Of a stretch of 43,425 nucleotides of DNA, positions 2,692-29,753 are shown one piece after another. The position numbers and the translations under genes were made by a program. The stretch spans positions 1 through 43,425 of the forward strand of contig JAUIID010000016.1 in the NCBI GenBank assembly GCA_030431615.1, given 5' to 3'. The stretch is from Alphaproteobacteria bacterium. GTDB taxonomy: Bacteria > Pseudomonadota > Alphaproteobacteria > Geminicoccales > Geminicoccaceae. A model generated the notes under the pieces. It saw nothing but the letters and a program-made list of their open reading frames with translations. It searched no databases and was not told the origin of the DNA. The first letter of the stretch is position 1. Each line of letters begins with the position of its first letter.

Positions 2692-3807
2692 ATGACGGAG
2701 CCGCGCCCGCGGTTCACCGACCTCGTCCAGGGTCTGCCGGCGACGATCCCGTTCGTCGGCCCGGAGGCCCTGGAGCGGCGGCGCGGGCGCGGCTTCGAGC
2801 TGCGCCTCGGTGCCAACGAGAGCGCCTTCGGCCTCTCGCCCCTGGCGGCGGAGGCCATCCGGCGGGAGCTGGCGCGGGCCGCCTGGTACGGCGATCCCGA
2901 GGCCTTCGAGCTGTGCCGGCGGCTGGCGGCACTGCATGGCGTGGCCGTGGACGAGATCGTCATCGGCGCCGGCATCGACGAGCTCCTGGGCGTGCTGGTC
3001 CGGGCGGTCACCAGCCCGGGCGACCCGGTCGTCACCTCGGACGGGGCCTATCCGACCTTCAACTACCACGTCACCGGCTTCGGCGGCCGGCTGGTCACCG
3101 TACCCTACCGGGACGACCACGAGGACCCGGAAGGGCTCGCTTCGGCGGTGCGGCGGGAGGGGGCGAGGCTCGTCTATCTCGCCAATCCCGACAACCCGAT
3201 GGGCAGCTGGCATGCGGCCCCGGTCATCCAGCGCTTCCTTGCCGCCCTGCCGGCCGACGTGCTCGTGCTGCTCGACGAGGCCTATGTCGAGTTCGCCCCG
3301 GCGGATGCCGCCCCGCCGATCGACACGGCCGACCCCAGGGTCGTGCGCCTGCGCACCTTCTCCAAGGCGCACGGCATGGCCGGGCTCCGCATCGGCTACG
3401 CCATCGCCCATGCCGCGGTGATCCAGGCCATGGGCAAGATTCGCAACCACTTCGGCGTCAGCCGCATCGCCCAGGCGGCGGCCATGGCCTCGCTCGACGA
3501 TCCGGGCTTCGTCGCCGGCGTGGTCGCCGAGGTGGCGCGCGGCCGGGACGAGTATGCCGAACTCGCCGCCCGGCTCGATTTTCGCGCCCTGCCCTCCGCC
3601 ACCAATTTCGTCGCCATCGACGTCGACCCCGGGAACGGCGGATCCGCGCACAGCCAGAAGCTGCTCGAGGCCCTCGCCACAGCCGGGGTCTTCATCCGCC
3701 GCCCCGGCATCGCCCCGCTCGACCGCTGCATCCGCGTCTCCGTCGGCACTGCCCCCGAACGGGCGCGTTTCGCCGATATCCTCACCGGGATCGTCCGCGC
3801 GCAGTAG
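2692..3807 (+). CDS. HisC-like PLP-dependent aminotransferase (fold type I)
   Basis: A 371-residue class I/II aminotransferase resembling histidinol-phosphate aminotransferase. It has the N-terminal LGANESAFG segment, NPDNPMG for substrate and cofactor contact, DEAYVEF, and the PLP lysine in TFSKAHGMAGLRIGYA. The C-terminal segment RVSVGTAPE carries the carboxylate-binding Arg. It starts 13 bp after the aldehyde dehydrogenase stop, suggesting cotranscription. No other his genes are near, so a role on another amino acid is as likely as histidine synthesis. The gene runs into composite array 1, with the convergent ccoS beyond it. Confidence 0.88.
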   Translation: MTEPRPRFTDLVQGLPATIPFVGPEALERRRGRGFELRLGANESAFGLSPLAAEAIRRELARAAWYGDPEAFELCRRLAALHGVAVDEIVIGAGIDELLGVLVRAVTSPGDPVVTSDGAYPTFNYHVTGFGGRLVTVPYRDDHEDPEGLASAVRREGARLVYLANPDNPMGSWHAAPVIQRFLAALPADVLVLLDEAYVEFAPADAAPPIDTADPRVVRLRTFSKAHGMAGLRIGYAIAHAAVIQAMGKIRNHFGVSRIAQAAAMASLDDPGFVAGVVAEVARGRDEYAELAARLDFRALPSATNFVAIDVDPGNGGSAHSQKLLEALATAGVFIRRPGIAPLDRCIRVSVGTAPERARFADILTGIVRAQ

Positions 3808-3918
3808 GATTATTAGCCTATTTAACGCCTGCTGTCAAGCTGGTCGGGTTCCTTCGGCAGAATAGGGTTTCTGGAAGCAGGGAAGCCTGCAGACACAGCA
3901 ATTTCGCGAGATCTTGTT

Positions 3919-4021
3919 GGGTTCGTTCGTCGAATCCTTGGGTTCGCTCGTCGATTCGGTGGGTTCGTTGGTCGAATCGCCGGGTTCGATCGTCGTTCTG
4001 GCGGGTTCGATCGTCGCCAGC
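3919..4021 (+). repeat. Array 1, part A: five ~21-bp direct repeats
   Basis: Five units begin at 3919, 3940, 3961, 3982 and 4003, an exact 21-bp period. Each starts with GGGTTCG, followed by a variable base and TCGTCGA or a close variant. The last unit is 19 bp and abuts the first inverted repeat. Read on the minus strand the period gives seven-residue repeats (DERTxxx). However, the CGA ACC codons do not vary even at wobble positions, which points to conservation of DNA or RNA rather than of protein. A 21-bp period is two helical turns, as in iterated protein-binding sites. Confidence 0.93.
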
Positions 4022-4167
4022 TGTCGCGTTATATGCGACATCTTGGGGTTGCTGTCGCATTATACGCGACACAATTGGCCCTACTGTCGCATATAACGCG
4101 ACATCCCGAGCCCAAGTGTCGCGTTATATGCGACAACCCGAGCCGTACTGTCGCGTATAGCGCGACA
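4022..4167. repeat. Array 1, part B: five phased 19-bp inverted repeats
   Basis: Five dyads lie at 4022-4040, 4053-4071, 4085-4103, 4117-4135 and 4149-4167. All have identical arms, TGTCGC and GCGACA, around an AT-rich 7-bp core such as GTTATAT. The gaps are 12, 13, 13 and 13 bp, so repeat starts are 31-32 bp apart, about three helical turns. In RNA each could form a 6-bp stem with a 7-nt loop. The 31/32-bp period is not a multiple of three, which argues against a coding repeat. Confidence 0.95.
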
Positions 4168-6954: not shown

Positions 6955-7042
6955 GGCCCCTTGGTGGAATGGTAGACACAGCGGTCTTTAAAAACCGACT
7001 GCCTTGGCGGGCGTGCGGGTTCGAGTCCCGCAGGGGCCACCA
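6955..7042 (+). tRNA. tRNA-Leu (UAA-like), with unusual anticodon loop
   Basis: An 88-nt class II tRNA with encoded CCA. The 7-bp acceptor stem (GGCCCCT with AGGGGCC) pairs fully. The D arm (GTG...CAC), a 16-nt variable arm (TGCC-TTG-GCGG) and a perfect 5-bp T arm (GCGGG-TTCGAGT-CCCGC) are present. The anticodon arm is odd: GCGGT and ACCGA enclose CTTTAAAA, an 8-nt loop where tRNA-Leu(UAA) normally has CTTAAAA. The outer G-A pair is a mismatch, and the D loop is one base shorter than usual. It may be a decaying tRNA, a mobile-element tRNA, or one that decodes unusually. The gene at 7060 starts 18 nt after the CCA. Confidence 0.8.
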
Positions 7043-25461: not shown

Positions 25462-25815
25462 CTCGCCGCCGGATTGGTCGGCGGAATGGTGGGCGGGCGG
25501 GGGCTGGATGACGTGCTCTCCGTTCGGGTAAGCCTTGGCGCGCTGCCGGCCGCCGGCGGGTTCGTCGCCTGCATGGGCAGGGCCGGGGGAGCGGTGCGGA
25601 GTGCGGCCAGGCGTTAGCAGGCAGGAGGGGTCTGGCGCCGCCGGGGGGCTCACCGGCCGGCGCGGCGGCGGCGCGGTCGGGCGTTGCGGTGGCGCGTCGG
25701 GCGGCATTCGCTGCTGTGGCTCACCATGACGGCGAGGTCGGGCGGAGCGGCGTGTGGGCCGGGGGGCTGCGCGAGGTGCTTGCTGCCGGGTCCGCCTCTG
25801 CCGACGCGGTGGCGG

Positions 25816-25865
25816 GTGGCGCGGGGTCGGGTGGCGCGGGGTCGGGTGGCGCGGGGTCGGGTGGC
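25816..25865 (+). repeat. Tandem 15-bp repeat, 3.3 copies
   Basis: Three exact head-to-tail copies of GTGGCGCGGGGTCGG at 25816, 25831 and 25846, followed by a partial GTGGC. Exact identity points to recent slippage. The period is a multiple of three, but no gene contains it. Confidence 0.9.
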
Positions 25866-26091
25866 TTTGCCTCCGCACTTGGTTCGGCAGGGTGCAGACG
25901 GGCGCGGTTCGGGGTGCCTCGTGTGGTTTCAAGAGGGAGCGTTACCTGAATGGGAATTATAGCCTTGATGGGGTGTGGGGTCAAGGGGCGTGGGGTCGTT
26001 TGGTGATTTCGGGTTTTCGGGGTCGCGGGGCGCTTCGGGGGCGGTCGGGCGGGTGGGAAACGGGGGTGATTTCAAGGGGTTGGAAGGTCGT

Positions 26092-26193
26092 GGGTTCGTT
26101 GGTCGGGGGGCGGGTTCGTTCGTCGGAAAGGTGGGTTCGTTCGTTGAAATCCCGGGTTCGCTCGTCGATTCGGTGGGTTCGTTCGTCGGCGGG
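26092..26193 (+). repeat. Array 2, part A: five ~21-bp direct repeats
   Basis: Units begin at 26092, 26112, 26133, 26154 and 26175, with lengths 20, 21, 21, 21 and 19. All start GGGTTCG. The unit at 26154 is identical over its 21 bp to the unit at 3940 in array 1. The last unit is 19 bp and abuts the first inverted repeat, just as in array 1. Confidence 0.93.
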
Positions 26194-26339
26194 TGTCGCG
26201 GAATCCGCGACAGTTGGGGGCAAGTGTCGCGCTATACGCGACATAAGGGATCGTGATGTCGCGTTATACGCGACAGTTCGGCGGGTGCTGTCGCGTTATA
26301 TGCGACATGCCGGGCCCGACTGTCGCATATAACGCGACA
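26194..26339. repeat. Array 2, part B: five phased 19-bp inverted repeats
   Basis: Dyads at 26194-26212, 26225-26243, 26257-26275, 26289-26307 and 26321-26339, with gaps of 12, 13, 13 and 13 bp, the same as array 1. All keep TGTCGC and GCGACA arms. The first, TGTCGCGGAATCCGCGACA, is perfect over 9-bp arms; the others keep AT-rich cores. The gap sequences differ from array 1, while spacing and arms do not. Confidence 0.95.
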
Positions 26340-26557
26340 ACCTGGGCGGTTCAGGTGGCCGAAAGCCGCCGGACGACGTGCGCGGCCGGGTTTTCGACGA
26401 CCAGGCATAAGCGTTCGTGATGCAGTCGAGGCGGTCGAGGTCATGCCCATGGCGACCCGCGCCGGGACGCACCGGAATGGTCTCATGTCCTTAGCCGGCC
26501 GGCTTCCCGTCGAGGGCGGGGATGGCGATTTGCGGCCCGCAAGCCTTGCCCATGCCA

Positions 26558-26752
26558 TCAGGAGAGTGGCACGTCTTCCACCAGTGGTCCGAGATCACGA
26601 GCCGAATGCACCACGCGAATGAAGACGACCTCTCCGGCAGGTTCGTCGATGACGTACAGCATGAGGTGGCGTCCCTCGACGGTCATGCGCACGCCTCCGG
26701 CACCTGCACGATGGCCGTATACTTCGTCGGGCTGCGGACGATCGGTGCTCAC
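26558..26752 (-). pseudogene. ParE/RelE-type toxin, C-terminal remnant
   Basis: A 64-codon frame whose product looks like the second half of a ParE/RelE toxin: GGVRMTVEGRHLMLYVIDE, then VVFIRVVHSARDLGPL. The N-terminal half is missing; the first residues (STDRPQPDEVYGHRAG) look like mid-protein sequence. It lies 81 bp beyond a truncated parE, so it is either that gene's displaced tail or the relic of a second toxin. Confidence 0.65.
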
Positions 26753-26997: not shown

Positions 26998-27222
26998 CTA
27001 TGAGCCGTATTTCCGCTTGAACGTCGCGAACATCTCCTCGCCATCGACCGTCTCGCCGTTGCGGGCCTGCTCGATCCCCGCGTCAAGATCGCGCCGCAGA
27101 GCAGCCAGCTTCGCCGCCTCGATCTCGCCAAGCCGTTGGCCGAGCGCCCGCAATGCCTCTTCCCGCTCTTCCTCGGGAAACGCCTCGAGCCGATCAGCCA
27201 GTGACTTGAGCATCTGGTCCAT
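26998..27222 (-). CDS. ParD-like antitoxin
   Basis: A 74-residue acidic helical protein (LADRLEAFPEEEREEALRAL, then LRRDLDAGIEQARNGETVDG) resembling antitoxins of parDE modules in alphaproteobacteria, with the usual C-terminal toxin-binding tail. It precedes the truncated parE by 5 bp. With its toxin broken it is a leftover, though it could still act on a related toxin elsewhere. Confidence 0.7.
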   Translation of the reverse strand: MDQMLKSLADRLEAFPEEEREEALRALGQRLGEIEAAKLAALRRDLDAGIEQARNGETVDGEEMFATFKRKYGS

Positions 27223-27836: not shown

Positions 27837-29753
27837 ATGTCATCAATTGAAGTTAAATCGGTCAGCATACCCAAGATTCTTGACAATCTCTTTATAGGCG
27901 AATGGTTGACACCCGAATTTCAGCGCGATTTCGTCTGGACGACCTCTCAAATAATATCCCTAATCAACTCGATCATTGATGCTAAGCCGATAGGAATGGC
28001 AACCCTATGGCAGCAGGAGGAGAAAAGCGATCTACCTCTGGAGCACATATCAGTCAATGACTTCATTTATGATAAATCCAAATCGGGACCAAGATATTTC
28101 GGTGACAATGACCATCGCCCTGGGCGTTATTATGCAATTTTAGACGGCAAGCAACGATCAACTGCAATTGCAATGGCCTTCGGGGGACTCAAGGCCGAAC
28201 ACGGAAACTACAGGTATTCCGGGGGCTATTTTATCAATGCAGATTATGATGATGTGCAGGATCGAATCCAATACCTAAACAAGGCGGAAATTGACCGGAG
28301 AGGATTAAACACACTAACCGCATACGTTCAGAATGCGTTATTTCCAATTGCCCTCAAGAAATTTGACCGCCTTGTTCAGCATTTCTTTGAGTTCATTTCC
28401 GCAATTGATAACGACCAGAATTATCCTGAAGGGCGAGCCGCCTCCAAAGCCGAAAAGGATCGAAGAAAAGAGATAGTACAAGCTGCTTATGAGGGCATTA
28501 ATAACACCCTACTTGCTGTATACATAGTGCCAAAAGAAGAAACTTTAGGCGAGATTTGCGACATCTTCGAGGTCTTGAACACTACGGGAACCAAAGTTAC
28601 TACGGTTGACCTCATTCATTCATCAATATACGCCGAAACAATGAATGAGAGTTCCCAGATTCACATTCGCGATGAAATCGATCTCCTTTCTGAACTTGAT
28701 GGGCTGCAGGGTTGGTCCACATCAAGCTTTAGACCTGAGCTGATTGCACAAAATGTGGCGGCAATTCAGATTGCCCTCGATAGAAAACATACGCCTCGAC
28801 AGGTTGCCGGTCGGAGAGAGGCCAGGATCAACTCTATAAAATCTAGCGATCTATTAGCTATTTCAAGCTTGAGTTGGAGAGACTTCTTTTTGAACCGCGA
28901 GTTTGTTGCAAGCTGCTTCTCGGACTTCCAAACTGTGACATCAGGAGGGCGCTTCTCTCTTTCGCAATGCCCCTATCCAGCAACGCTAAACGTCTACCTT
29001 GCTCTTCGATGGCACCTCGAGTTCGATCGACCCCCTGATGCCCATTGGACGCAAACCCATCTTAATCGCATATTCCGGGCCTTTTTCTGGCGAAACACCT
29101 TTTCGCGTAGATATGACCAGGGCTTTCTAACCCGAGTCAGCGTTGACATTGGAGAGTTCAAAAAGTTCCTTCTCAAGACACGCGCTAAGAGTGATGACCA
29201 AATTTGGGTTTCAGAGGCGGAGGATTTCCTCGGCACCCTTCCGCTGATGTCTCCCTTGACGGTCATTCAGGAAGAAGTTCGGAACGCGATAACTGACGGA
29301 AATATCCGAGGCGCGCTCAGATCAGGGAGTCTTTTGCTATTACACTCACGCGCTCAGAAAGATATAGTTGATCCCACCCAAGATATATCAAACATTACGA
29401 GCGCTCACGAATTGCATCATATTTATCCTCGGAGATGGTGCAGGGACAATGCCCTAGGAGTTAATGTAACTTCATTATCTGAATCAAATTATTTGACAAA
29501 CTGGGTCGAGTCATCTTCGAACCTGATCCCGATGTCAACAAAATCAAATAAACTGTGGGACACGATGGAGCCGTCTACTGCGATAAGTTTGCTGAAAATT
29601 TCGACAAGCGACCAAATAGATCAATTGAAAAGATATTTCGTGGATGAAGGTTGTTTAAGTTTGCTGAAGGGCGGCGCGATGAACGCCGGAGACTTCTTGC
29701 GAGCTAGAGCTAAGTTGATAGAGGCCGAAATTTTACGATTGATGCGAGTATAA
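27837..29753 (+). CDS. DUF262 and HNH domain protein (GmrSD-like)
   Basis: A 638-residue protein with an N-terminal DUF262 domain and a C-terminal HNH-type nuclease motif. The N-terminus has LTPEFQRDFVWTTSQI at about residues 24-39 and the nucleotide-site motif LDGKQRSTAI at about 102-111. HELHHIYPRRW lies at about 523-533. This resembles GmrS/GmrD type IV restriction enzymes, which use NTP and cut modified phage DNA. The ATG at 27837 has GGAG about 7 nt upstream. Codon use and GC are far lower than in the flanks, a sign of transfer. The AlbA_2-domain gene follows after 5 bp, so the two form an operon. Confidence 0.85.
   Translation: MSSIEVKSVSIPKILDNLFIGEWLTPEFQRDFVWTTSQIISLINSIIDAKPIGMATLWQQEEKSDLPLEHISVNDFIYDKSKSGPRYFGDNDHRPGRYYAILDGKQRSTAIAMAFGGLKAEHGNYRYSGGYFINADYDDVQDRIQYLNKAEIDRRGLNTLTAYVQNALFPIALKKFDRLVQHFFEFISAIDNDQNYPEGRAASKAEKDRRKEIVQAAYEGINNTLLAVYIVPKEETLGEICDIFEVLNTTGTKVTTVDLIHSSIYAETMNESSQIHIRDEIDLLSELDGLQGWSTSSFRPELIAQNVAAIQIALDRKHTPRQVAGRREARINSIKSSDLLAISSLSWRDFFLNREFVASCFSDFQTVTSGGRFSLSQCPYPATLNVYLALRWHLEFDRPPDAHWTQTHLNRIFRAFFWRNTFSRRYDQGFLTRVSVDIGEFKKFLLKTRAKSDDQIWVSEAEDFLGTLPLMSPLTVIQEEVRNAITDGNIRGALRSGSLLLLHSRAQKDIVDPTQDISNITSAHELHHIYPRRWCRDNALGVNVTSLSESNYLTNWVESSSNLIPMSTKSNKLWDTMEPSTAISLLKISTSDQIDQLKRYFVDEGCLSLLKGGAMNAGDFLRARAKLIEAEILRLMRV

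Follow-up and report, generated by a model that had tools for sequence, protein, structure and literature searches.

Bacterial interspersed repeats are usually short, and they are mostly regarded as decaying or selfish sequences. Iteron plasmid origins combine direct repeats at about two helical turns with an IHF-like site and a promoter. The Correia or NEMIS elements of Neisseria are dispersed, non-coding units of about 107-155 bp with terminal inverted repeats, a target duplication and putative promoters, where the 155-bp form contains an IHF site (PMC2229807). The CIR repeats of Caulobacter and Brucella, as summarised in a review, are intergenic inverted repeats of about 110 bp with two inverted-repeat arms and GANTC motifs (Chen and Shapiro, 2003, as reviewed in PMC2229807). 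REPIN/RAYT systems, in turn, are populations of short sequences kept inside a genome (PMC8049555). The element described here is, in our best reading, most like the Correia or CIR repeats and a member of neither. No described element with such a layout was found, with none in Rfam, plasmid, phage or class-wide searches.

Like the Correia family, the element is dispersed and non-coding, and its sequence contains an internal IHF-like site and an outward promoter. Unlike that family, it is about 440 bp long, carries helically phased arrays of sites, and has no visible terminal inverted repeat; when its termini were compared for Correia-type inverted repeats of about 24 bp, the left end TAGGAWTWATAGCC and the right end CATAAGCGTTCGTGATG were not inverted copies of each other. 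A TA target-site duplication is not evident at the copies on contigs C4, C120 and C150, and the empty site in the congeners is too diverged to read. With CIR, as far as the reviewed account describes it, the element shares its nature as an intergenic alphaproteobacterial repeat with inverted repeats and GANTC motifs, while differing from the 110-bp, two-armed form given there in that GANTC is only partial: it reaches 16.5 per kb in the head units versus about 1.4, yet occurs in 60 of 175 units. The CcrM-type RAMA domain (PF18755) was not found in this genome, while the control matched in Caulobacter, and control through CcrM and GANTC was rejected on this absence and the incomplete occupancy of the heads, even with GAWTC enriched in them. 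As in REPIN/RAYT, a sequence population is maintained within one genome, but its members are far longer and are not paired REP hairpins.

The window, the whole stretch of DNA analysed, is 43,425 nucleotides long and belongs to a MAG of 5.3 Mb in 314 contigs. Here, the earlier note had described a composite array of 21-bp units and phased dyads, and we recovered this array (copy 1) with exactly the layout given there (Table 1). It is far from a product of chance, since the dyad pattern has 169 exact matches genome-wide, 168 of them in array-carrying contigs, against 0 for a reversed control pattern. A second array, copy 2, lies at 26092-26339 (Tandem Repeats Finder). Besides this copy, the analysis adds to the earlier description a leftward extension to about 3805 with a promoter and the site GGGTTCCTTCGGCA, about 38 genome copies, an IHF-like bend site, paired 17-bp boxes and an orientation by GC skew.

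Table 1. Features of the two element copies in the window (strand as given; a dot marks features listed on neither strand).
Feature	Position	Strand	Remarks
Copy 1 left end, TAGGATTATTAGCC	3805..3818	-	Holds the -10-like box of the putative leftward promoter; basis: sequence, family-wide conservation and spacing
Copy 1 -35 box, TTGACA	3833..3838	-	17 bp from the -10-like box TAATAA (3810-3815); basis: sequence
Copy 1 promoter-proximal site H0, GGGTTCCTTCGGCA	3846..3859	+	Offset -176 from dyad 1; 41 bp from TAGGA
Copy 1 head units, five GGGTTCG-NTCGTCG	3919..4016	+	Starts 3919, 3940, 3961, 3982, 4003; exact 21-bp period
Copy 1 dyads, five exact TGTCGC-N7-GCGACA	4022..4167	+	Starts 4022, 4053, 4085, 4117, 4149; steps 31, 32, 32, 32 bp
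Copy 2 leftward promoter-like sequence	25956..25984	-	TTGACC (25984-25979), 17 bp, TATAAT (25961-25956)
Copy 2 IHF-like site, TTTCAAGGGGTTG	26070..26082	+	One mismatch to WATCAANNNNTTR; family offset -124
Copy 2 head units, five GGGTTCG	26092..26188	+	Periods 20, 21, 21, 21
Copy 2 dyads, five TGTCGC-N7-GCGACA	26194..26339	+	Steps 31, 32, 32, 32
Copy 2 inner C box, CATAAGGGATCGTGATG	26242..26258	.	Between dyads 2 and 3
Copy 2 right-end C box, CATAAGCGTTCGTGATG	26406..26422	.	Offset +212 relative to dyad 1; the element ends here on the right

The roughly 38 copies collected are each a discrete intergenic unit of about 440 bp, of which the array is only part. Each is ordered as a sigma70-type promoter sequence facing away from the array, a GGGTTCG site termed H0, an IHF-like bend site (in about half of the copies), four to six GGGTTCG head units at 21 bp and then five TGTCGC-N7-GCGACA dyads. 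When the copies are aligned on the first dyad, the dyads fall at 0, 31, 63, 95 and 127 in nearly all of them, and the heads at about -19, -40, -61, -82 and -102. The copies on C4, C120 and C150 form a subgroup in which two head units are inverted with respect to the rest. Across the interval from -213 to +230, C4 and C120 share 87.5% identity, with unrelated flanks beyond, and C150 has the same limits; because the identity between C4 and C120 is confined to this interval, the element is a discrete, copied unit. A regulon of single sites was considered and rejected, as the one isolated AT-centred dyad outside the arrays, in contig C168, itself lies beside an array. The LexA box of alphaproteobacteria (GTTC-N7-GTTC) was also rejected, the motif being present in just 4 of 111 GGGTTCG units.

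The far left of the element, TAGGAWTWATAGCC, reads on the minus strand as a sigma70-type promoter (TTG..., 17 bp, TATAAT or TATAAA, TCCTA). Called from consensus sequences, this left-end promoter scores at least 9 of 12 in 18 of 37 copies versus 2 of 259 control windows, and the spacer between the -35 and -10 boxes is 17 bp in 33 of 37 copies. The H0 site, GGGTTCGTTCGGCA, lies at -202/-203 from dyad 1 in 18 copies and near -181/-182 and -223/-224 in further copies, that is, one 21-bp unit off, while its distance from TAGGA is 41-44 bp in 20 copies and 51-53 bp, one helical turn more, in 4. The IHF-like site, likewise called from a consensus and preceded by an A-tract, is found at the fixed offset of -124 in 14 of the 15 copies having at most two mismatches, a level reached by about 12% of Markov-shuffled windows and by 4 of 152 flanking windows. 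In some copies, one of these two sites is absent or weak: copy 2 has no recognisable H0, and in copy 1 the IHF-like site is weak. The C box, a near-palindrome of 17 bp, lies between dyads 2 and 3 in 13-15 copies (15 at two mismatches or fewer), nearly always paired with a second box on the right. Both boxes are present in 12 copies, only the inner one in 3, only the right one in 0 and neither in 23 (p = 1.7e-7), copy 1 being without them. Of the 12 right boxes, 10 begin precisely at +212.

The genes next to the copies are ordinary ones, with no unusual family recurring in the fetched flanks. The left neighbour reads toward the element in 24 of 35 cases, such that the promoter aims into the 3′ end of a convergent gene and would often give antisense RNA (in about two thirds of copies). 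That it simply serves as the promoter of the adjoining gene was rejected on the same count, with the left neighbour correctly oriented in just 11 of 35. In the window, the left end of copy 1 overlaps the TAG stop of a gene assigned by Pfam to the class I/II aminotransferases (2692-3807), and 6955-7042 on the plus strand holds a tRNA gene that scores 48.5 bits in Rfam and whose anticodon ARAGORN does not clearly assign. To the left of copy 2, the 15-bp unit CGCGGGGTCGGGTGG is repeated in tandem, in four copies (25805-25865). Beside copy 2 are two short minus-strand ORFs (26558-26752 and 26998-27222) that by eye resemble a ParE/RelE-type toxin and antitoxin, and to its right, on the plus strand, lies a defence-like gene for a GmrSD/DUF262-type protein (27837-29753; Pfam GmrSD_N).

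Between related copies, the spacers are 19-31% different. Across seven related pairs, differences fall at 398 of 1555 spacer positions but at only 2 of 420 positions in the dyad half-sites and 16 of 419 in the heads, a very large contrast, even though the pair masks were made from one member per pair, with some ascertainment favouring conserved sites. The dyad centres, differing at 57 of 242 positions, behave like spacer. Near-invariant half-sites amid drifting spacers point to selection on the sites in place, and sites almost unchanged within drifted DNA suggest that the element probably does something. The spacings (21 bp, 31/32 bp, and 41-44 or 51-53 bp) are also held despite spacer drift, which agrees with the earlier proposal of a multi-protein DNA complex on one helical face.

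The best explanation, to which we give slightly less than an even chance and which is read from the sequence, is that the element is a dispersed, looped and regulated cis-acting promoter module with conditional outward transcription, antisense in about two thirds of copies. Here, the sigma70 promoter at the left end would fire away from the array. One protein, or a close relative of it, would probably bind both H0 and the distal 21-bp heads, with an IHF-type bend between them. The upstream complex would comprise the heads and five dimer-bound dyads, fixed by the paired C boxes in some copies, and may fold back to control the promoter. Copies would have spread by duplication and been lost at some loci, with the remaining ones kept by selection on their sites. 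Against this explanation, an ordinary regulon would not be expected to have 24 of 35 promoters facing the 3′ end of a convergent gene, some copies have a missing or weak H0 or IHF-like site, the strict orientation by GC skew is not accounted for by promoter control alone, and no candidate binding protein was found.

A search of relatives, as the earlier note had suggested, showed two same-genus MAGs, Geminicoccaceae S10.Bin091 and CSSed165cm_57, which have the same layout, heads and promoter-like left end, with TGAGTCGGTATATGCGCCA-type units replacing the TGTCGC dyads. The TGTCGC two-dyad pattern was found in none of 59 relatives, and the head pattern in none of 384 other genomes of the class. 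Two further MAGs hold element copies; in one of them, filed as Myxococcales, the contig with the element (L172, JAGQIT010000410.1) is probably Geminicoccaceae DNA that was misbinned. To the right of several copies in the congeners G001 and G002 (L076, L082, L085, L086 and L088) is a terminator-like hairpin, GGGGAGGCAGCGCCTCCCC, that is widespread in these genomes. Both congeners are syntenic with this genome for the two genes that flank the copy on contig C229, and have a short intergenic gap there that is empty of the element; at four other loci of this genome, no element adjoins the congener orthologue of the left gene, and the hisC-like gene beside copy 1 is directly followed by another gene in both congeners. 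Conversely, 2 of 17 congener copies lie about 20 bp past the stop of the same gene as a copy here, in the same orientation. The empty syntenic locus and the two positions that look shared suggest that copies come and go, with positions partly old.

Discrete copies with unrelated flanks and a fully syntenic locus that is empty in both congeners are also what a non-autonomous, MITE-like mobile element might leave, where the heads, dyads and bend site would serve a transposase or recombinase, encoded elsewhere, as its synaptic complex and the orientation bias would arise from insertion into lagging-strand single-stranded DNA. Some transposons have IHF-type sites and polarity, which adds to the resemblance. 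We nevertheless consider this origin unlikely: transposition competence alone does not require sites to be kept while spacers drift, neither terminal inverted repeats nor a clear target duplication were seen, and no recurrent gene lies near the copies. A RAYT, the Y1 transposase (PF01797), was rejected as a candidate, being found in neither this genome nor G001, with two matches in G002.

The orientation of the element agrees with the fourfold GC skew, corrected for gene strand, in 20 of 21 copies with |z|>2 and in 18 of 19 informative contigs (Wilcoxon p = 4e-5), and significant half-contig skews have the same sign. Gene strand bias does not explain this, as the genes themselves are unbiased with respect to skew (118 versus 124). 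If the G-rich strand is the leading strand, as is generally the case, the promoter would face the fork. This polarity, along with neighbours that are ordinary and varied, would suit a chromosome-level DNA platform, be it nucleoid, segregation or fork-related, for which direction relative to replication would be the essential property and where the promoter would serve the platform, for example by setting local supercoiling. Such a platform is doubtful, however, as GC skew is a proxy for replication direction against which genes are unbiased, the copies lie at irregular distances, with pairs 10-22 kb apart, and show turnover between species, and the small congener orientation test is weak (about 5 for, 2 against).

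The earlier note had also raised a centromere or an origin left by a replicon, and neither fits well. A parS-like centromere, with parAB linkage and few clustered sites, differs from about 38 dispersed copies beside ordinary chromosomal genes with no recurrent neighbour, and a single centromere is thus unlikely. A plasmid or phage family that left iteron-type origins or decoys in the chromosome would account for five 21-bp direct repeats at about two helical turns, the IHF-like site and the AT-rich promoter region, but is very improbable for dispersed chromosomal copies that have no match among 72,556 plasmids and 50,697 phages at blastn sensitivity. Matches of the pattern in viral contigs were an unrelated repeat, and no replication initiator gene was found beside the repeats, either in the fetched flanks, which share no recurrent gene, or by Pfam among the window neighbours.

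Least credible of all are RNA hairpins, another idea of the earlier note, here taken as terminators or mRNA stabilisers in read-through transcripts, because, although each dyad in this genome is a 6-bp inverted repeat and two thirds of left neighbours read toward the array, the seventh stem position is A..C 53 times versus 11 for the pairable A..T, compensated half-site changes are found in 0 of 14 imperfect dyads, congener units are by inspection mostly not self-complementary, and Rfam matches fall below gathering scores and to eukaryotic or snoRNA families. Instead, the dyad unit reads as two independent half-sites, TGTCGCR-N5-YGCGACA, and the evidence favours a DNA-bound protein.

Throughout their genomes, congeners differ in the dyad recognition sequence, suggesting that it changes in step with a binding protein. 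It is possible, though we put this forward tentatively and as rather unlikely, that the promoter modules are chromosomal control elements of a new kind, nucleoprotein structures oriented by replication and maintained by the host. They would fire antisense or outward at dozens of loci, and their binding sites would change together throughout the genome as the protein that binds them evolves. In essence, the element forms a large family whose sub-sites and spacings are all legible in the sequence, under selection in every copy and polar relative to GC skew. With sites that are readable, conserved and polar, the function of such repeats becomes directly testable by pull-down and TSS mapping.
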